Source of the DNA: Alphaproteobacteria bacterium
GTDB taxonomy: Bacteria; Pseudomonadota; Alphaproteobacteria; Rs-D84
Length of the DNA: 43,098 bases
Assembly (NCBI GenBank): GCA_009784815.1
Contig: WQXN01000007.1
Span: 1 to 43,098, forward strand
Direction of reading: 5' to 3'
A model generated the notes under the pieces. It made no database searches and had not been told where the DNA came from. It was given only the letters and a program-made list of their open reading frames with translations. Shown here piece after piece: positions 9,837 to 43,098 of this stretch; positions within the stretch are counted from its first letter, which is position 1; the number at the start of each line of letters is the position of its first letter. A program made the translations under genes and the position numbers.

Positions 9837-9866
9837 TTGACAAAATTAAGCGGGGGGGGGTAGAAT
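9837..9866 (+). promoter_or_regulatory. Sigma70-like promoter with a G9 tract in its spacer
   Basis: TTGACA (9837-9842) and TAGAAT (9861-9866) are separated by 18 nt, and the last nine spacer bases (9852-9860) are all G. Gain or loss of one G would change the spacer to 19 or 17 nt. It drives the radical SAM gene starting at 9912. Confidence 0.75.
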
Positions 9867-12240: not shown

Positions 12241-12269
12241 TTGTTTATATGTCTGATTTATGGTATAAT
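12241..12269 (+). promoter_or_regulatory. Promoter of the outer-membrane protein gene
   Basis: TTGTTT (12241-12246) and TATAAT (12264-12269) are 17 nt apart. The leader of about 16 nt carries AGAAGGTGGG before the TTG start at 12292. Confidence 0.65.
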
Positions 12270-12291
12270 AGCGGTTAGAGAAGGTGGGTAT

Positions 12292-13800
12292 TTGAGAAGA
12301 ATATCACTAATTTTGGCCGCTGTATTGGCGCCTGTCTGTGCATCGAATGCGCGGGAGGGTACTCCGTTTTATTATCAAAATTTCGGACAAGGCCAGCAAT
12401 TTACGGTCCGCCAGAACCCAGCCGGGCCGCAGGGACAGCCAATAATAGTCGGTAACCAGCCGGGCCGCAGCGTAGTAGGACAGAACGTGACTTCCGAAGT
12501 TTTCACAGTGCCGCGCGCCGGAAGCGGAGGCGGTATCGGAGTTCCTGGCGGCGATCATTTTACTCCGTTCGGAGTCGCGTTTCCGCCGCCAAACGACTGG
12601 ACCGTTTACGGTATCGCGGGACGCCGTTTTGCGGACTTCTCGTTCAAGACCGGCGTGAATTCCATATTGAAGTGGGACGACATGGTGTTCAATGATCTTG
12701 GAATCGGACTTAGGCGCGATTTTTCCGTGGGCGAGTACGACATGTTTCTGTTCGGAGAGTATACCCGCGGAAGCTATGTTTCCGGCGCTTTATCGTACGA
12801 TTATGACTTGAAGCCTTATGACGAACGATTCCCGCAGTACGGACTTTTCACCATATCCGTCGGAGAGCAGACAGGAACCACAAACCGCATAAAGTTCGGG
12901 CTTGGAGCCAGGCATATTTGGGATGTGTTGGGTTGGAAAATTTCTCCGGTCGTCGGGTATGAAATTCTGCGCCACGATTTGCGAATGTTCAATCACATGT
13001 ATCCGAATCCAGCAACTTATATTCCATTGCTGACCGAGCTTGGCGATTATGTCGTCGGAGATATTTACGGAAACTATTTCTCGTTGGGCATGGGACTGCC
13101 AATACCAGACGGATTATATCAAGTTTGCGTCGGGCCCGAGGACGTATTAATGGTTCAGGTCGGATCGAACGGAGCGCCATTGGTCGACGGATCCGGCAAC
13201 CTTATTATGACTTCGTGGGAACTTATAATGGGCGATCTGCCTTGGGGAGTTCCGGGAGGAAGCTGCATCATAATCGGCGGAGACGGCCCGATCATGATCC
13301 CAGGCACCACGCATATATACAACACAAGCTGGGCCGGAATTTACTTGGGGATCGAACTTGAGAAGCAGATGACCTTTAACGACAAGTTGCGCTTTTACGG
13401 CCAGGTTTCCGCCCCGCGTTATTCAGCCGAAGGGATTTGGCCGAACCGCCACGATTGGCAGCAGAATCCGTCGTTCATCGACGAGGGAAGCAATGGAGCG
13501 TTCTCGTACAGGTTCGAAATGGAGTATACTTACAACTTGAACGAAAACCTGCAGATCAGCATCAAGGCCGATCACGAGCATTTCCGCGTAGGAAACATAT
13601 CGGGCAGGTTGTTCGTAAGCGAATACACCGCTTATGTAATAGATCAGGACGGACAGTATGTGTTGGTTCAACTGCCCGACGGAAACTGGATACCAAAGAT
13701 CGAGACGATCCCCGCGCACGAGCAGTTTATTCAGGATTCTCTTAAATGGGCCAAGTGGCAGTCGTTCGGTCTTAATCTTGGCTTGAAATATTTGTTCTAA
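12292..13800 (+). CDS. Outer-membrane beta-barrel protein
   Basis: This 502-residue exported protein starts with a signal peptide, LRRISLILAAVLAPVCASNA (TTG start read as Met), followed by a Gly/Pro/Gln-rich stretch up to about residue 100. The remainder alternates hydrophobic and polar residues in strands rich in Tyr, Gly and Phe and ends with LGLKYLF, whose terminal Phe is the BAM recognition residue. Large loops occur around residues 270-355. The design recalls omptin-like barrels (VYGIAGRRFADFSFKTG, FGEYTRGSYVSGALSYDYD), but I do not see enough to name the family or to predict protease activity. The TTG at 12292 is placed 16 nt after the expected transcript start and follows AGAAGG. A palindromic repeat copy follows the stop. 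Confidence 0.75.
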   Translation: MRRISLILAAVLAPVCASNAREGTPFYYQNFGQGQQFTVRQNPAGPQGQPIIVGNQPGRSVVGQNVTSEVFTVPRAGSGGGIGVPGGDHFTPFGVAFPPPNDWTVYGIAGRRFADFSFKTGVNSILKWDDMVFNDLGIGLRRDFSVGEYDMFLFGEYTRGSYVSGALSYDYDLKPYDERFPQYGLFTISVGEQTGTTNRIKFGLGARHIWDVLGWKISPVVGYEILRHDLRMFNHMYPNPATYIPLLTELGDYVVGDIYGNYFSLGMGLPIPDGLYQVCVGPEDVLMVQVGSNGAPLVDGSGNLIMTSWELIMGDLPWGVPGGSCIIIGGDGPIMIPGTTHIYNTSWAGIYLGIELEKQMTFNDKLRFYGQVSAPRYSAEGIWPNRHDWQQNPSFIDEGSNGAFSYRFEMEYTYNLNENLQISIKADHEHFRVGNISGRLFVSEYTAYVIDQDGQYVLVQLPDGNWIPKIETIPAHEQFIQDSLKWAKWQSFGLNLGLKYLF

Positions 13801-13803
13801 TTA

Positions 13804-13962
13804 TGACAAAAACCGCAAGCAATTTGCAGTCGCCTTGCCAAATCGTTGATTACCGTCGAAAAACCTCCTTACAGGGACTTAGGTGTCCACATTCCAGTCG
13901 GTTTTTCTAGGTTCTGAACGATTTGTCATAGGCTCTGATTGCTAGGCAGTTTTTGGGATTAT
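13804..13962. repeat. Palindromic repeat family, copy 2
   Basis: A long imperfect palindrome fills most of the gap between the outer-membrane gene and tyrS. Paired arms include CAAATCGTT with AACGATTTG, AGCAAT with ATTGCT, and GAAAAACC with GGTTTTTC. The centre holds GGGACTTAGGTGTCC, as in copy 1. The outer flanks align base by base with copy 4 (GCAAGCAA on the left, TTGCTAG-CA-TTTTTGG on the right). Confidence 0.85.
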
Positions 13963-13966
13963 TTAA

Positions 13967-13994
13967 TTGAAATAAAGGCGAGGGCGAGTATAAT
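13967..13994 (+). promoter_or_regulatory. Promoter of tyrS
   Basis: TTGAAA (13967-13972) and TATAAT (13989-13994) are 16 nt apart. The leader of about 17 nt contains GCGGAGA, a weak ribosome-binding site, before the ATG at 14018. Confidence 0.6.
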
Positions 13995-14017
13995 AAGGGT
14001 TGCGGAGAAAATGACAA

Positions 14018-15241
14018 ATGGCAAAATACAAATCAGAATTTTTAAACGAGATAGATGCGCGGGGAATGCTGTATCAATGCACCGATATAGAGGGGCTTGA
14101 CGCGCGGCTGTCCGGTAAAAAGCAGGCGATCGCTTATTGGGGGACGGATCCCACCGCGGACGCTTTGCACGCCGGGCATCTTGCTTCGTTCTATCTTATG
14201 CGGGTTTTCGCAAAGTTCGGCGGCAGCCCCGTTATACTTGTCGGAGGGGCAACCGGAATGATCGGGGACAACGATCAGATGACCGAACGCCCGCCAATGG
14301 ACGAAGAGACTTTGGCCAAAAACGTCGCCGGGATTAAGCGCGATTTGTCGCGGTTCTTTGATTTTAAAAAATCCGCCAAGCTGGTAAATAACTATGATTG
14401 GTTCAAAAACGTAAAGTACATGGAGTTTTTGCGCGACGTCGGACGGCACTTCACCATCAACGAGATGTTGTCCAAAGATTCCGTGAAGGCGCGGCTTGAG
14501 GCCGGATTGCCCATGACGTACAAAGAGTTCAGCTATTCGCTGTTCCAGGCTTATGATTTCGTGCATTTGTACCGCGAGCTTGGGTGCGATATTCAGTTCT
14601 TTGGCAGCGATCAGTGGGGCAATGTCGTAGCGGGCACCAGCCTGGGCCGCAAGCTTGGCATGAAACTTTTCGGATTATCCAATCCTTTGGTTTTGGATTC
14701 TAAAGGTCAAAAGCTGGGCAAGAGCGCGGGCAACGCCGTGTGGCTTGACCCCGCGCGCACCAGCGATTTCGATTACTATCAGTATTTCAGAAACGTCGAT
14801 GACGCCGATGTTGGCAAGATGCTGAAGATCTATACCGACTTGCCGATCGACGAGATCAGGCGATTGGAAAAATTGCAGGGTAGCGAAATCAATGACGCGA
14901 AAAAAACCCTAGCTTTCGAGGCCACAAAAATTTGCCGCGGAGAAAAGTCCGCCGTTGCGGCCGCGGAAACCGCGAGCTCGATATTTTCGGGCGGGGCGGA
15001 CATGGCTGCGATTCCGGTTGCAAGAATCAGGATGTCCGCGGCTATGAATGTCGTGGAATTCGTCATGTTGGCCGGGATGTTTCCTTCCAAGAGCGAAGCG
15101 CGGCGAACCATAGAGCAGGGCGGGTTGCAGATTGACGGCCGAAAGGTTGAAAGCATCGACGAGGTAGTCGGTCAGGCGGACGAAATTATGGTTCAGAAGG
15201 GAAAAAAGGTTTTCTTGAAAGTCAGGTTGGCGGCATCATGA
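14018..15241 (+). CDS. tyrS: Tyrosyl-tRNA synthetase
   Basis: TyrRS charges tRNA-Tyr. The 407-residue class I enzyme has GTDPTADALHAGHLASF (HIGH-like motif HAGH), the tyrosine/tRNA region SYSLFQAYDFVHLYRELGCD, then FFGSDQWGN and the KMSKS-like KLGKSAGNAVWL. The C-terminal 70 residues form an S4-like RNA-binding domain (SKSEARRTIEQGGLQIDGRKV). The length and order are those of bacterial TyrRS. The stop codon overlaps the start of a 52-codon basic ORF by 4 nt (ATGA), so that ORF is probably co-translated. Confidence 0.96.
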   Translation: MAKYKSEFLNEIDARGMLYQCTDIEGLDARLSGKKQAIAYWGTDPTADALHAGHLASFYLMRVFAKFGGSPVILVGGATGMIGDNDQMTERPPMDEETLAKNVAGIKRDLSRFFDFKKSAKLVNNYDWFKNVKYMEFLRDVGRHFTINEMLSKDSVKARLEAGLPMTYKEFSYSLFQAYDFVHLYRELGCDIQFFGSDQWGNVVAGTSLGRKLGMKLFGLSNPLVLDSKGQKLGKSAGNAVWLDPARTSDFDYYQYFRNVDDADVGKMLKIYTDLPIDEIRRLEKLQGSEINDAKKTLAFEATKICRGEKSAVAAAETASSIFSGGADMAAIPVARIRMSAAMNVVEFVMLAGMFPSKSEARRTIEQGGLQIDGRKVESIDEVVGQADEIMVQKGKKVFLKVRLAAS

Positions 15242-15396
15242 GCAAGCCAAAGAAAAAGCGCAAGTCCAACCCGGTTGCAAAGATGATGTTGCTTTGCGGA
15301 CGCTTCGCGCCAAAGGTCGTTCCAGACAGAAAAAAGGAAGATTCAAGAAAAACCGCGCGGAGAAAAGTCTTTATAGACAGAGAGCGCGGCGAATGA
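15238..15396 (+). CDS. Small basic protein of the NPVAK kind, coupled to tyrS
   Basis: A 52-residue ORF begins at an ATG that overlaps the tyrS stop (ATGA). The product is strongly basic: MSKPKKKRKSNPVAKMM, then FAPKVVPDRKK and RKTARRK. The combination NPVAK ... VVPDRKK recalls short conserved proteins of unknown function in alphaproteobacteria, as far as I can remember; no function is known to me. The 4-nt overlap and full use of the intervening sequence argue that it is translated. The stop overlaps the -10 of the next promoter. It may bind RNA or the ribosome, but that rests only on its charge. Confidence 0.6.
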   Translation: MSKPKKKRKSNPVAKMMLLCGRFAPKVVPDRKKEDSRKTARRKVFIDRERGE

Positions 15397-15402
15397 TATA
15401 AT
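15374..15402 (+). promoter_or_regulatory. Promoter of the small membrane protein gene
   Basis: TAGACA (15374-15379) and TATAAT (15397-15402) are 17 nt apart. The resulting leader of about 60 nt contains the hairpin at 15423-15442. Confidence 0.6.
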
Positions 15403-15422
15403 AAGGACAACAGCAATCTGAG

Positions 15423-15442
15423 ATTCCGGCCTTCGCCGGAAT
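15423..15442. repeat. REP-like hairpin in a 5' leader
   Basis: ATTCCGGC-CTTC-GCCGGAAT is a perfect 8-bp hairpin. Read on the minus strand, it and its flanks (GTCATTCCGGCGAAGGCC) match the common proteobacterial REP-type sequence. It lies between the promoter and the ribosome-binding site of the next gene and could also act as an mRNA structure. Confidence 0.55.
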
Positions 15443-15467
15443 GACAATTGCCAAAAAGGAGCAAAAT

Positions 15468-15725
15468 ATGTACAACATAGGCATAACTTTGGTAGTGATA
15501 ATAGCGGCCGCGGCGATATTGGTTTCAGTGCTGCGCCCAAGCAAGTATTCCCAGGCGGTAGTCGCGATCGGCGTAGTAGGCATGGTTCAGGCAAGCTTCA
15601 CGCTGGCCATGACCGCGTTCGTTTGGGCCGTGCTTGGCTTTGTTTGGCCGAATAAGGATCGCATTTTGAAGATGATCGAGCTTGGCGACGAAATCGTCAA
15701 AAAGAAGAAAAAGGCAAAAAATTAA
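15468..15725 (+). CDS. Small two-helix membrane protein, function unknown
   Basis: The 85-residue product has two hydrophobic segments, one near residues 5-22 (ITLVVIIAAAAILVSVL) and one near 33-62, joined by RPSKYSQ and followed by a lysine-rich cytoplasmic tail (IVKKKKKAKN). I do not recognise the family. The ATG at 15468 is preceded by AAGGAG 6 nt upstream. A longer frame from 15441 lacks this site. It has its own promoter and a hairpin in the leader. The stop is directly followed by palindromic repeat copy 3, which probably ends the transcript. Confidence 0.6.
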   Translation: MYNIGITLVVIIAAAAILVSVLRPSKYSQAVVAIGVVGMVQASFTLAMTAFVWAVLGFVWPNKDRILKMIELGDEIVKKKKKAKN

Positions 15726-15861
15726 AACCGCGTTTTTCACTTTCGCGCCTAATCGTCCAATACACTTCGAAAGACCGACACGCCATGGCAGCCTATTAGG
15801 CCTATGTCGGTCGGTCTTTCTTGGTATTGGACGATTATTCATCGAAAGTGCGATGCGGTTA
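15726..15861. repeat. Palindromic repeat family, copy 3
   Basis: The element pairs almost end to end: CACTTTCG with CGAAAGTG, AATCGTCCAATA with TATTGGACGATT (perfect 12 bp), and GAAAGACCGAC with GTCGGTCTTTC (perfect 11 bp). The centre has the hairpin GCCTA-T-TAGGC. The outermost arms differ from copies 2 and 4 but remain complementary. It separates the small membrane protein gene from the winged-helix-like gene. Confidence 0.9.
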
Positions 15862-15887
15862 AAATTTTTTGAAATTTATTTTAAGCT

Positions 15888-15893
15888 TATAAT
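15888..15893 (+). promoter_or_regulatory. -10 element placing the transcript start at an ATG
   Basis: TATAAT ends 7 nt before the A of the ATG at 15900. The -35 region is only T-rich (about 15865-15870). Transcription should begin at the start codon. Confidence 0.5.
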
Positions 15894-15899
15894 AAAATT

Positions 15900-16349
15900 A
15901 TGATGAAACAGGGCGGGTTGCTTGTATATTGTGATAACGAGGCTTTGCGGGAAATCCTGCAAAGCTTGGGTATCGGCGCAGTTGATGAGTTAAATCCGAC
16001 GGTGGATGTTGTAATTATAAATAAAAAGGAAGATGCCGATCGACATCGGCATAACAGTTATTTAATAATTGACAGGATGATGGATGGGCGGGAGTTGATG
16101 GGAGAAATCATCAGGACCGTAGATAAGTTAGAATTTGACGTTCTGAATAAGCTTGGCGTGAGGGACGTTTCGAATTCGGGACGCCGTATTCTGGTATGGC
16201 TTGATCAGGCCGGCTTGACCGGAATCAGTCCCGCCGAGTTGGAAGGTCGCGTCGGAGGCAGAAACAATTTGCGCACGGCCATTCATGCGCTTAGGAAATC
16301 GGTAGATATAATTTTCGCGGACGGAGTTTATCGACTTGCAAAAATATAA
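15900..16349 (+). CDS. Winged-helix-like protein upstream of birA
   Basis: This 149-residue protein is not one I can name. The C-terminal third (ISPAELEGRVGGRNN, LRTAIHALRKSVDII, FADGVYRLAKI) resembles the winged-helix output domain of OmpR-type regulators, including the final strand ending in YRL. The N-terminal half (LLVYCDNEALREILQSLG, DVVIINKK) could be a degenerate receiver, but the acidic pocket and phosphorylated Asp are not obvious. The gene appears leaderless: TATAAT ends 7 nt before the ATG. A second ATG follows at 15903. It overlaps birA by 14 nt. Since class II BirA proteins carry an N-terminal winged helix, this neighbour could supply the DNA-binding part separately; that is a guess from context. 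Confidence 0.5.
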   Translation: MMKQGGLLVYCDNEALREILQSLGIGAVDELNPTVDVVIINKKEDADRHRHNSYLIIDRMMDGRELMGEIIRTVDKLEFDVLNKLGVRDVSNSGRRILVWLDQAGLTGISPAELEGRVGGRNNLRTAIHALRKSVDIIFADGVYRLAKI

Positions 16350-17010
16350 AATAATTCTCTTTGACAGTTTGCCCAGCACTCAGGTCTATGCGCGAGAGCT
16401 TATCGCAGCCGGCAAGGCGATGGATAAAATTGCGATAGTTGCGGATGTTCAGACCAAAGGCGTAGGCCGCCGCGGAAACAAATGGGAATCCGCGCACGGA
16501 AATTTATATCTTAGCTGCATTATTCCGGGCAATGACGATCCGCGGGTTTCGTATTGCGCCGGGCTGGCCGTCAGCGACGCTTTGAAAAAATTCGGCGTAG
16601 AGACCAAAGTCAAATGGCCCAACGACGTGTATGCCGGCGGCGGTAAAATATCAGGGTCATTGGTCGAGATCGTAGGCGGATTCATGATAATCGGAATCGG
16701 TATCAACCTTGGGGCCAAGCCGGACGTCGCGGGTTATCCGACCGCTTGCGCCGCTGATTTCGGCAAAGTAATTTCGCGCGACGCTGTATTAAAGGTTCTA
16801 TTAAAAAGATTGGATCATTGGATTGCGATTCCATTCGAACAGGTTCGCGACGAGTGGATGCGCCGGGCCATGTATGTCGGAGATGAAGTCGAGTTTAAGG
16901 GCCGCGCGTTGAAATTCATGGGCATAGATTCGGACGGTGCGTTGGTGCTGGGCGAAAACGTTAGGGTGCTGGGCATGGATGAGGGTATTGTGTGGGGAAG
17001 GAAGAGGTAG
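16336..17010 (+). CDS. birA: Biotin-[acetyl-CoA carboxylase] ligase
   Basis: BirA activates biotin to biotinyl-AMP and transfers it to the carboxylase carrier protein. The 224-residue protein has the substrate segment LPSTQVYARELI, the biotinyl-AMP loop TKGVGRRGNKW, KWPNDVYAGGGKISGSLVE with the Lys of the active site, and IGIGINLG, followed by a small C-terminal SH3-like domain (YVGDEVEFKGRALKFMG, then VLGMDEGIVWG). It lacks the N-terminal winged helix of E. coli BirA and so is the non-repressor class. The start is a TTG at 16336, 13 residues before the conserved Ser-Thr, inside the 3' end of the upstream gene. Repeat copy 4 follows the stop. Confidence 0.92.
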   Translation: MQKYKIILFDSLPSTQVYARELIAAGKAMDKIAIVADVQTKGVGRRGNKWESAHGNLYLSCIIPGNDDPRVSYCAGLAVSDALKKFGVETKVKWPNDVYAGGGKISGSLVEIVGGFMIIGIGINLGAKPDVAGYPTACAADFGKVISRDAVLKVLLKRLDHWIAIPFEQVRDEWMRRAMYVGDEVEFKGRALKFMGIDSDGALVLGENVRVLGMDEGIVWGRKR

Positions 17011-17017
17011 GAAGGAC

Positions 17018-17166
17018 AAAAATGCAAGCAACTTCAATCGTCTTGTCTAATCGCCCACTACGCTTCGAAAGACCGACACGCCGCGGCAGCCTAAAGGCCT
17101 ATGGCGGTCGGTCTTTCTTGGTATTGGACGATTTTCATAGACTCTGGTTGCTAGACATTTTTGGAA
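17018..17166. repeat. Palindromic repeat family, copy 4 (overlaps olsA 3' end)
   Basis: It aligns with copy 2 over its outer flanks and with copy 3 over its core. Paired arms include AAAAATG with CATTTTT, AGCAAC with GTTGCT, and GAAAGACCG with CGGTCTTTC; the centre hairpin is GCCT-AA-AGGC. Its right end enters the reading frame of the minus-strand acyltransferase gene and encodes its last ten or so residues. Confidence 0.9.
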
Positions 17167-17980: not shown

Positions 17981-18858
17981 TAGATTTCCTTTTGTTCTCC
18001 AAGCATCAGATTCGCCATAAGCGCAAGGCCTACGAACGGAAGCTTTAATATTTTAGCCGTAGATCTGATCAGACCGTCTTCGATCACCAGGTGGTCGAAC
18101 GCATTCTCTTTACCCATGAAGCGTTTCTGATAGACTTTGCTGATTTTGCGAGTTTGCATGATCGTAAATATGTCATAGCTGTTGAACGGATAGTCCATAA
18201 AGACTCCCTGTCCGAATTCCGCGCCAAGACGCAGGTAGCCCTTGGTCAGAGGAGTCATTTCTTCGAACGCCTGCTTTTCGTCCACGTATTCTTTGGGCAG
18301 TATGTTCATGCGGGCAAGAGGCCCCGGCAGCACTGTCGCACGGATAGATTTCGGCGCAAGGTGGTTATAATAAAGGTACGATAGCGCGTGCGAGGATTTC
18401 ACAGGCTGGAGGCCGTTGAACGAGATCACTCCGAACACTGCGGTGACTTTATTTCTAAGCACGTAGTTGCCCAGACCCAGCCAAAGCATACTGATGGCAA
18501 GCGGGTTGTCGCGGTATTTTTTCGCAACGCAGGCGCGCGACATTTCGATTATATTTCCGCGGATTTTCTTAATTTTTGATATGTCGAATTCCGTCGCAGT
18601 GTAAAAGCCGCCGTTTTCTTCCGCCGCTTTGCGGCTTATGATTCTGTATCCGCCGATGACTTTCTTTTTATGGAATACAAGCATGTATTCCGAGTATGCG
18701 TCGAATTCAGTGACTTCTTCTCGGCTTTGTTTTTCTTCTTCGCTGGGGGTTTTTCCTTCCTCTTCCACGAATATTTTATATCTTAATTTTAGAAACGCTT
18801 TCCGTTCGGCTTTGGTTTTCGCAAGCCTTACGCTAAATTCACCAACTGTTGTCGGCAT
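17980..18858 (-). CDS. olsB: OlsB-like ornithine acyl-ACP N-acyltransferase
   Basis: The 292-residue protein belongs to the OlsB/autoinducer-synthase-like GNAT group. It shows FLKLRYKIFVEEEGK near the N-terminus, EFDAYSEYMLV, VIGGYRIISR, the characteristic IIEMSRACVAKKYRDN and FGVISFNGLQPV. OlsB transfers a 3-hydroxyacyl chain from ACP to ornithine, the first step of ornithine lipid synthesis. The ATG at 18858 follows AAAGGA at good distance, and TACAAT (18885-18890) is a likely -10. The downstream gene is the matching PlsC-like enzyme, which supports the call. Ornithine lipids are phosphorus-free membrane lipids common in alphaproteobacteria. Confidence 0.82.
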   Translation of the reverse strand: MPTTVGEFSVRLAKTKAERKAFLKLRYKIFVEEEGKTPSEEEKQSREEVTEFDAYSEYMLVFHKKKVIGGYRIISRKAAEENGGFYTATEFDISKIKKIRGNIIEMSRACVAKKYRDNPLAISMLWLGLGNYVLRNKVTAVFGVISFNGLQPVKSSHALSYLYYNHLAPKSIRATVLPGPLARMNILPKEYVDEKQAFEEMTPLTKGYLRLGAEFGQGVFMDYPFNSYDIFTIMQTRKISKVYQKRFMGKENAFDHLVIEDGLIRSTAKILKLPFVGLALMANLMLGEQKEI

Positions 18859-26202: not shown

Positions 26203-26231
26203 TTGAAAAATGCCGAAGGGGGGGGTAGGAT
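26203..26231 (+). promoter_or_regulatory. Promoter-like element with a G8 tract in its spacer, no gene downstream
   Basis: TTGAAA (26203-26208) and TAGGAT (26226-26231) are 17 nt apart, and the last eight spacer bases (26218-26225) are G. Downstream on the same strand lies about 180 bp of AT-rich DNA without an ORF above 7 codons. That stretch contains the inverted repeat AAGTTAAAT/ATTTAACTT (26301-26330) and then the 3' end of the opposite-strand rhodanese gene. Confidence 0.5.
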
Positions 26232-32487: not shown

Positions 32488-32594
32488 TTTGGGCTCCTTT
32501 TTAGTTAGGGTGTGAGGGTTATGGTCGCGAAAGCGGCCGGGTAAAATTTATGTATGAATGGGTGTTTATTACGCAGAAATCCGCAGAAATCCAC

Positions 32595-32609
32595 GGGGGG
32601 GGGTAAGAT
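32595..32609 (+). promoter_or_regulatory. G9 tract followed by TAAGAT
   Basis: Nine G (32595-32603) precede TAAGAT (32604-32609) in the gap before ligA. No -35 is seen at 16-19 nt; instead the region holds a tandem repeat of CGCAGAAATC (32572-32591). It has the same polarity as the other G tracts. Confidence 0.35.
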
Positions 32610-41743: not shown

Positions 41744-42979
41744 ATGCAATTTATGACTGTGAGCGAGGCAGCCACGCGGTGGGGGATTACCGGGCGAAGG
41801 GTAATCGCTTTGCTGAACGCAGGCCGCGTGAATGGCGGAGTAAAGAGTGGCAAGTCGTGGTTGATTCCGGTCGATACGGCGCGCCCTTATGACGGGCGGT
41901 CGCATTATGCAAAGGTTGCGCCGCGAGCGAAGCGCATAGCGGTAGTCGGAGCAAATACTTCGCTTGGCGCGGCGGTTTCGGATCTTCTTGGCGGCAACGG
42001 ATATGAAGTAATCGGGTTTTCGTCCGATTTTGATCATGCCGGCAGCGTTTATTTGAACTATAACAATTTGGAATCCATGCGCGCGGTTTTCGATTCTATG
42101 GACGGGTACTTGGACGGTTTGCTTGTCGTGGATGATTTCGCGCGGGCGGATAACGGACTTGGTTTTGATTACTTAGATTTCGAGCGCGAGTTCCGCGAAA
42201 AAATTCTTCCGATGAATTTTATCGTCCGCGAGCTGGTCAAAAAAATGAACTATCAGTCCGGCGTCGTATTAGTAAATCCAAGCGATGAAAATTTCGTTTC
42301 GCGCACTGCGCCGCAGCTGTCCGAGCTTTACGGAATTCGCATAAATTCCATCACCGCAAAAGTCGACGAACATTATATTTCCGATCTTGCCGACGACGCT
42401 TATCTTTTGCTGACGCGGCACAAGTATATTACCGGCATTAATATAAAACCGGATATGGATTCGCTTGATCTGGATTCGCGCAAGCGGAGTTCGGATATGA
42501 ATTCCACGCGTTATTATGCCTGGCTGCACAGGCTTTATTCCAAGGCCAAGCCGGGAGACCATATATGGGTTGCTACCAAATTATCCAACAAGGTCGAATG
42601 GGTCGACAACGCTATGGAGCGCCAGTTCAAGCAGGACAATATGGACGCCGCGGGGCGCGGAGTCAAGATCACGCGCATATTCATGTTCCAGGGAAAAACC
42701 GAGCGAAAAAATAAAAAGAATCAAAACATCCGAGATTATGCGGCGAATCCGCGAATGAATATTTTGTGGGTGGATACGGACGCTTTGAAAAAACAGGCGC
42801 CCGGTTTATTGCAAAAAATCGGCGACGGATGGGGAGGAATAAACGACGATATTCTTATGGTGGATCTTCCAAGCGGAGAGCAGGGCGAGGCCTATGGGTA
42901 TGTGATCATGAATCAGAAAGACATAGCAGACGCCAAGCGCGCATTCAACGAATTGAAAAAGTTTGCAATGGCTATATGA
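41744..42979 (+). CDS. Helix-turn-helix, Rossmann (SDR-like) and unknown C-terminal domain fusion
   Basis: The 411-residue protein seems to have three parts. Residues 1-50 are an excisionase/MerR-like DNA-binding domain (MTVSEAATRWGITGRRV, ending SGKSWLIPVDTARPYDGR), a form common in Firmicutes. Residues 62-235 resemble an SDR Rossmann fold: a nucleotide site IAVVGANTSLGAAVSDLL, a GLLVVDDFARAD strand and VVLVNPSD before SELYGIRINSITAKVD; the Tyr-x3-Lys catalytic pair is not evident. Residues 255-411 (AKPGDHIWVATKLSNKVEW, RGVKITRIFMFQGKTERK) are unknown and recall PLD-like sensor domains. The right half of an inverted repeat covers its -10, suggesting autoregulation. Palindromic repeat copy 5 follows. 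The function is unknown. Confidence 0.6.
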   Translation: MQFMTVSEAATRWGITGRRVIALLNAGRVNGGVKSGKSWLIPVDTARPYDGRSHYAKVAPRAKRIAVVGANTSLGAAVSDLLGGNGYEVIGFSSDFDHAGSVYLNYNNLESMRAVFDSMDGYLDGLLVVDDFARADNGLGFDYLDFEREFREKILPMNFIVRELVKKMNYQSGVVLVNPSDENFVSRTAPQLSELYGIRINSITAKVDEHYISDLADDAYLLLTRHKYITGINIKPDMDSLDLDSRKRSSDMNSTRYYAWLHRLYSKAKPGDHIWVATKLSNKVEWVDNAMERQFKQDNMDAAGRGVKITRIFMFQGKTERKNKKNQNIRDYAANPRMNILWVDTDALKKQAPGLLQKIGDGWGGINDDILMVDLPSGEQGEAYGYVIMNQKDIADAKRAFNELKKFAMAI

Positions 42980-43098
42980 CAAAAAATCCTGAAATGTTTT
43001 ACAAATCGGTCTATATCGCCGATTAGCTTCGAAAAACCAACACGTCGCGGCAGCCTATTAGGCCTACGCCGGTTGGTTTTTCTTGCTTCTGGGCGATC
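42980..43098. repeat. Palindromic repeat family, copy 5 (right end cut by the window)
   Basis: The core matches copies 3 and 4 (CGCGGCAGCCTATTAGGCC). The stem reads GAAAAACCAAC with GTTGGTTTTTC, so two G-C pairs of copies 3 and 4 are replaced by A-T pairs on both sides. ATCGCC pairs with GGCGAT further out. The window ends inside the right arm. Confidence 0.88.

Follow-up and report, generated by a model that had tools for sequence, protein, structure and literature searches.

The 43,098-nt contig WQXN01000007.1 of an alphaproteobacterium of the Rs-D84 lineage (assembly GCA_009784815.1), which as a whole is called the window here, contains a family of palindromic elements whose two arms change together from copy to copy. 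How can a palindrome drift in sequence and still pair, and are such elements mobile DNA or structured RNAs? The reading that we prefer, to which we give about even confidence from sequence comparison, is that they form a non-autonomous, transposase-less family of mobile palindromic DNA that would act as a folded single strand. The genome to which the window belongs (G000) is a metagenome-assembled genome of 828 kb in 12 contigs that is 87% complete, and the window is its entire contig C7. Three sister species of the same genus, G001, G002 and G003, also carry the family. A preliminary description of the window had reported five copies, each an extended dyad with nested arms, and all five were verified in the sequence, nested arms included.

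Every element forms a single long, imperfect hairpin. The exact unit is about 147-158 bp long and runs from CAAAAA to TTTTTG, and these terminal inverted repeats are present in nearly all of the copies. The arms form concentric rings, L0 (the outermost, with the CAAAAA ends), L1, L2 and L3, and inside at least four such two-armed rings lies a core that carries a small hairpin at its tip. More than the two core types originally proposed exist. The only invariant columns are the CAAAAA/TTTTTG ends and scattered positions, and 96 distinct L0 modules occur among 113 copies. In two G001 elements, L239:10983 and L242:6810, the cores are enlarged by extra inserted hairpins and look as though a further palindrome had gone into the loop.

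Alignments of 29 copies from the genome itself and of 42 copies from a congener were made separately and by sequence, and in both of them 88-89% of the cells are paired. The covariation score of the 29 copies is 0.399 versus 0.157 +/- 0.008 after shuffling, and that of the 42 congener copies is 0.379 versus 0.130; in neither case did any of 500 shuffles reach the observed value. When the pairing partners were slid as a control, the score was 0.07-0.11 and never above 0.11. The statement that pairing is kept while the sequence drifts thus holds far beyond chance in two species. The changes are mainly two-sided; some are double transversions that lack intermediates, AU21/CG8 being one.

The pattern of inheritance became apparent when arm-segment distances were compared, pair by pair, among all copies of a genome. 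The opposite arms of one ring are correlated, with a mean rho of 0.69, 0.69 and 0.77 in three species, even for the arms of the outer ring, which are about 120 nt apart, yet rings that touch each other on the same arm are nearly uncorrelated (rho 0.06, 0.02 and 0.16). As judged from these sequences, the rings assort INDEPENDENTLY: the two arms of a ring are inherited together and adjoining rings are independent of each other. Identical two-arm modules are common to copies whose remaining rings differ completely, and so the correlation is not mere saturation under a pairing constraint. For example, all seven of the shared L1 modules in G000 are found with more than one L0. The copies at C8:4614 and C4:17475 of this genome are nearly identical from L1 to the core, yet their L0 sequences are unrelated on both arms and the borders are sharp; the copies at 18126 and 10309 of G003:C8 are a similar case. 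Together with the module sharing, these copies indicate that rings are exchanged with both arms at once. The earlier observation that the outermost arms of copy 3 replace those of copies 2 and 4 as a pair is therefore correct, and it is general across copies. Near-identical copies with wholly different L0 rings also rule out stepwise compensatory evolution as the sole source of the covariation. A nested-insertion model, in which the inner unit is always the younger insertion, was rejected as a general rule, since the same middle ring is found in combination with differing rings inside and outside it.

The family is large and, among the genomes searched, is limited to a narrow group of hosts. 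A covariance model was built from the 29 own-genome copies; it matches 44 sites in G000, and of the congeners one has 39 matches and the two others have at least 49 apiece, with E-values that reach 7e-33. About 49 full or partial loci are present in G000, so that the absence of further copies, which would have spoken against a family, was not what we found. A symmetric dyad scan of the same genome gave 29 palindromes at a score of at least 16, versus one in Markov-resampled sequence. A search of 56 genomes from other genera, families and orders with the model returned no convincing copy, just three weak matches. Plasmid and phage collections had no match to the elements, and a search of viral contigs by means of the neighboring TyrS protein gave no relative. 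No element is present in 13 kb of the metagenome-assembled genome Rickettsiales bacterium Coa324_bin6, which is the nearest named relative by way of that TyrS protein (76% identity). In the reading that we prefer, the elements spread within one genus of small-genome alphaproteobacteria.

Several observations indicate that the elements move. Near-identical copies lie between unrelated flanks, such as G000:C4:31314 and C8:31134, which have two differences, and positions 85677 and 91670 of G003:C4, which have four. In the latter pair the identity begins at CAAAAA and ends at TTTTTTG, and so these recent duplicates fix the exact ends of the unit on both sides. At orthologous gene tails, compared between species with a median protein identity of about 60-63%, G000 and G001 share four element loci versus 1.1 expected, and many orthologous tails carry an element in one species only. 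At C8:31288 of G000 the TGA stop codon consists of a T and the GA of the element; the congener has TAA and no element. The left flank has the motif AA[G/T]G[A/C], with G at -2 in 98%, A at -4 in 83% and A at -5 in 75%, and insertion past this motif at gene ends often preserves or restores the stop codon. Younger elements are also nested in the left arm of older ones, after TAAG. At the ends of the elements, direct repeats of 2-5 bp occur no more often than in shuffled pairings, and a classical miniature inverted-repeat transposable element (MITE) with target-site duplication was therefore rejected. Hence the suggestion that the elements are mobile and MITE-like stands for mobility and fails for a classical MITE, because there is no target-site duplication and because a parent transposon was not identified in a search that covered selected transposase families.

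Partial forms occur as well. Tandem right-end units of 44-46 bp and of different types lie 3' of complete elements, in arrays that are partly common between loci (G000:C3 43557-43710, C4 31216-31369, C8 31034-31189 and C5 14-169). Hairpins of 42 bp that consist of L0 only, with the center TCGCGG or TCGCGA, are present at G000:C3:4744-4785 and 16301-16342. Both forms look like remnants, and the L0-only hairpins resemble deletion products or empty forms.

Could the palindromes be passive? Without a dedicated enzyme, they would spread by ectopic recombination and by break repair at hairpins, and their pairing would be maintained purely by template switching during replication, through the copying of one arm onto its partner. 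Template switching has been reported to generate RNA hairpins and preserve them (PMC8794818) and to homogenize the arms of inverted repeats (PMC8604942), and both the double transversions without intermediates and the ring swaps that hit two arms at once would fit such a process. We regard this explanation as unlikely. It does not account for exact unit ends between unrelated flanks or for the flank motif with its nearly invariant G.

The placement of the elements is also far from random. Their left ends coincide with the stop codon of an open reading frame (ORF) of at least 50 codons in 86 of 110 cases (78%), versus 26% when intergenic positions are drawn at random from the same contig and strand, and these ORFs extend just 10-12 nt or so into the element. 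The upstream genes at the left ends are co-oriented with the elements, and the gene that follows is convergent for 63 of 116 elements, where about 37% would be expected by arithmetic from gene-pair counts. All of the elements of a contig are co-directed in G000 and in G001; given the gene strands, the probability of such uniformity is 2.5e-9 and 2.6e-11, respectively. The sole exception that we saw is a block of reversed skew on G003:C4, in which two of the four elements are inverted.

The two strands do not fold equally well. The strand antisense to the upstream gene is the better folder in 28/36, 41/42 and 31/34 cases with RNA parameters and in 34/36, 40/42 and 33/34 with DNA parameters; the difference is 6.7 kcal/mol versus -0.1 +/- 4.5 kcal/mol in the shuffled control. 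In about 83 cells the mismatches in L2 are G.T on the antisense strand, and in one cell they are G.T on the opposite strand. Passive palindromes leave this excess stability of one strand unexplained because arm copying would treat both strands alike.

These results bear on a second alternative, that the elements are large intrinsic terminators or mRNA-stabilizing hairpins kept for their function at gene ends. Left ends that adjoin stop codons, convergent neighbors above the gene-order expectation and covariation in two species would all be in line with it, as would the sense-strand hairpin that is followed past the stop codon by TTTTTTG, a U-run like that of intrinsic terminators. However, the sense strand is the weaker folder, and on each contig the elements follow genes of one strand only, though both strands need terminators. 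Many orthologous tails manage without an element, the rings assort independently, and stepwise compensatory mutation does not explain the exchange of whole rings on two arms. A search of the window against Rfam matched two tRNAs only and no family for the elements. We consider a structured RNA quite unlikely. Of the two possibilities raised by the preliminary description, mobility is thus the one that gained support, and a structured RNA is the less likely one in view of the antisense fold, the orientation by contig or replichore and the two-arm exchange of rings.

The copies in the window illustrate these features, and all of them lie on the forward strand. The five loci reported earlier are real, but copies 1 and 5 are cut by the contig ends and the boundaries of the others had to be corrected; about 12 contig ends of the G000 assembly fall inside elements of the family. 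The three complete copies (13807-13955, 15715-15871 and 17017-17163) each run from the C of CAAAAA to the G of TTTTTG. Copy 1 (1-90) is the right part of an element, namely the core and the right arms, and matches positions 66-160 of covariance model R1 with 59 bits; directly 3' of it (91-124) lies a decayed right-end unit, GATTGTTATTTGTGATCGGGATGGGATTTTTTG, recognized by its sequence and by comparison with intact right-end units. Copy 2 (13807-13955, 149 bp, 125.5 bits) begins 7 bp past the stop codon of ORF 12241-13800, and the orthologous tail of this gene in G001:C2 also has an element, whose ring sequences are unrelated. Copy 4 (17017-17163, 147 bp, 128.9 bits) begins 7 bp past the TAG of ORF 16336-17010, which is BirA-like by eye, and copy 5 (42980-43098, 109.6 bits) begins directly past the TGA of ORF 41744-42979.

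Copy 3 (15715-15871, 157 bp, 150.6 bits) was a real locus in the preliminary description, where it was given as 15726-15861 and lacked its outermost ring. By sequence and fold, the left arm of its L0, CAAAAAATTAAAACCGCG (15715-15732), pairs with the right arm, TGCGGTTAAAATTTTTTG (15854-15871); L1 pairs 15733-15751 with 15836-15853; L2 pairs ATCGTCCAATACACTTC (15752-15768) with 15821-15835; and L3 pairs GAAAGACCGAC (15769-15779) with GTCGGTCTTTC (15810-15820). The core with the terminal hairpin, AGCCTATTAGGCC, occupies 15780-15809. The last codons and the TAA stop of ORF 15441-15725, which resembles a small membrane protein, lie within this copy, and so the insertion supplied the C-terminus of the ORF.

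The one-sided fold and the common orientation raise the question of which strand is exposed during replication. Simple GC skew failed as a proxy for the direction of replication in G000, and fourfold-degenerate sites were used instead. Averaged over both gene strands, the G skew at these sites is strong and negative along the top strand of the elements in all six of the contigs examined in G001 and in all three of those in G003. A negative skew of the top strand means that the folding bottom strand is the G-rich strand, which is expected to be the lagging-strand template; it would have this role in G001 and G003. As this would predict, the 16S gene (C15) and rplN (C3) of G003 run opposite to the elements. 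The sign of the total skew differs between the congeners.

We return to a mobile family that acts as a folded single strand, and the following steps can be proposed for it. The folded strand would be exposed on the lagging-strand template at the fork, where a postulated hairpin-recognizing enzyme, possibly HUH/Y1-like, would cut it and paste it elsewhere. Rings would be exchanged when two folded elements recombine; alternatively, a polymerase may switch template between hairpins and copy one arm onto the other. The pairing would then stay intact as the sequence drifts, owing to such arm-to-arm copying together with selection for foldability. It is a tentative and rather less probable extension of this proposal that the base-paired ring, and not the linear segment, is the unit of inheritance, with folded single strands swapping rings at replication forks to give combinatorial palindromes by an enzyme or a replication mechanism that is not yet described.

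Some of the results weigh against this proposal. The G.T asymmetry comes mainly from ring L2 and a few columns and is not uniform along the element. In G000 fourfold sites have almost no skew, and the total skew, taken relative to the elements, is of opposite sign; rpoB in G001:C4 is co-directed with the elements, contrary to the prediction. We infer ring swapping from extant copies, among which there is one exact four-gamete quartet only, and the claim relies on module sharing and on the pattern of correlation. No candidate enzyme is common to the four carriers among the families searched, and as these genomes are 87-96% complete, such absences are soft. Y1_Tnp, searched for with PF01797 and directly with proteins, was found in G003 alone among these incomplete genomes. 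A reverse transcriptase is present in G000 and G002 only, an IS110-type recombinase in none, and tyrosine recombinases (PF00589, counted at the level of the family) give only one to three matches per genome. The two reverse transcriptase genes, G000:C9:23650-24231 and G002:C39:37961-38539, are element-free for about 1.5 kb on either side.

The Y1 protein of G003, which has 167 aa and is supported by Pfam, brings up a third alternative, namely that the elements are ordinary REPINs or miniature elements derived from IS200/IS605 that are moved by RAYT or TnpA, and that only their sequences are new. REPINs are indeed the nearest known kind. Like REPINs and REP sequences (PMC3116915, PMC8266576), the elements are extragenic and palindromic, form hairpins and are mobile without a gene of their own, and the spacer of REPINs also displays compensatory changes (PMC3116915). 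The lack of a target duplication and the single orientation per contig would suit this alternative as well. The lagging-strand template is the target of IS608 and ISDra2 (PMC6006769), as would be the case here, and IS200/IS605 elements and PATEs (PMC6006769, PMC3119063) too have a short 5' target motif and cause no target duplication. What differs is that REPINs have two inverted, invariant REP motifs of about 16 bp, which the present family does not have; its pairing varies along almost the whole length, its concentric rings are independent and its L0 modules are nearly as numerous as its copies. Whereas the palindromes of IS200/IS605 are subterminal hairpins, the whole element here is one nested palindrome. 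Neither a RAYT (a Y1 HUH protein) nor a TnpA was found in three of the four carriers, with the incompleteness of their genomes as noted, and no element lies within about 1.5 kb on each side of the Y1 gene of G003. We judge this explanation improbable.

A fourth alternative is that the elements are attC-like sites of an integron-like tyrosine recombinase. The attC sites of integrons also conserve structure over sequence, fold and act as the bottom strand and have a similar length of 57-142 nt (PMC2727003). Unlike these sites, the elements lack conserved heptanucleotide boxes (R'/R'') at their boundaries in alignments A2, A6 and A7; there are no cassettes or cassette arrays, the genes between elements being housekeeping genes, and no integron integrase was identified by the family-level search, which gave only one to three integrase-family matches per genome. 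We think it very improbable that the elements are attC-like.

Two other families invite comparison. The preliminary description had named Rickettsia palindromic elements (RPEs) as a parallel in design, and for design only the parallel holds: these are also palindromic, about 150 bp long and present in many copies in small-genome Alphaproteobacteria (PMC10969869), but they lie in frame inside ORFs and encode peptides, whereas the elements described here are at stop codons, in one orientation per contig. It is this placement that sets them apart. The second family is SMR-A of Haloquadratum (PMC3119063), which is about 110 bp long, has terminal inverted repeats and neither a target duplication nor a related transposon, inserts into the palindromes of other elements and is mobilized in an enigmatic way. 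We saw no covariation or ring exchange described for it, and the organisms differ; the comparison is one of descriptions. The elements work like REPINs, IS200/IS605 elements, attC sites and SMR-A, and membership in any of these is not established.

The three weak matches in other genera come from a larger, branched element, about 195-220 nt long, that has three hairpins with covarying tips and a 3' domain homologous to the window family. This relative occurs in one congener and in 11 genomes that represent other genera within the same family, with up to 12 matches in a genome (loci L213-L215 and L282-L310 in genomes G003-G006, G008-G010, G013-G016 and G018). An RNase P RNA gene (L284), in which positions 1-367 of the RNase P model span 590 nt, contains one copy, and a 23S rRNA gene (L288) contains another. 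An Rfam search of seven loci with the larger relative returned no family for the element itself.

G000 has some further repeats. Another palindromic family, unrelated to the first, about 133 bp long and likewise with differences in paired arms, occurs at G000:C3:59773-59905, C4:42062-42196 and C6:20143-20275. In addition, G-runs, mostly of nine, lie between a TTGACA-like -35 box and a TAnnnT -10 box in 30 of the 55 G-runs of at least seven in G000 and in two or three per congener; the window contains three such sites (9842-9866, 26207-26231 and 32585-32609). It is possible that they are phase-variable promoters on a large scale.

In conclusion, covariation of paired bases usually counts as strong evidence for a functional RNA, and here it occurs in what appears to be mobile DNA, in which linkage follows the fold rather than the linear sequence. 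This is a caution for RNA-discovery pipelines that score covariation. The wider family also touches essential RNAs, since the larger homologous element sits in genes for RNase P RNA and for 23S rRNA in sister genera. These elements also make it possible to test whether compensatory changes can arise in one step by hairpin recombination or template switching and how palindromes that lack a transposase may spread.

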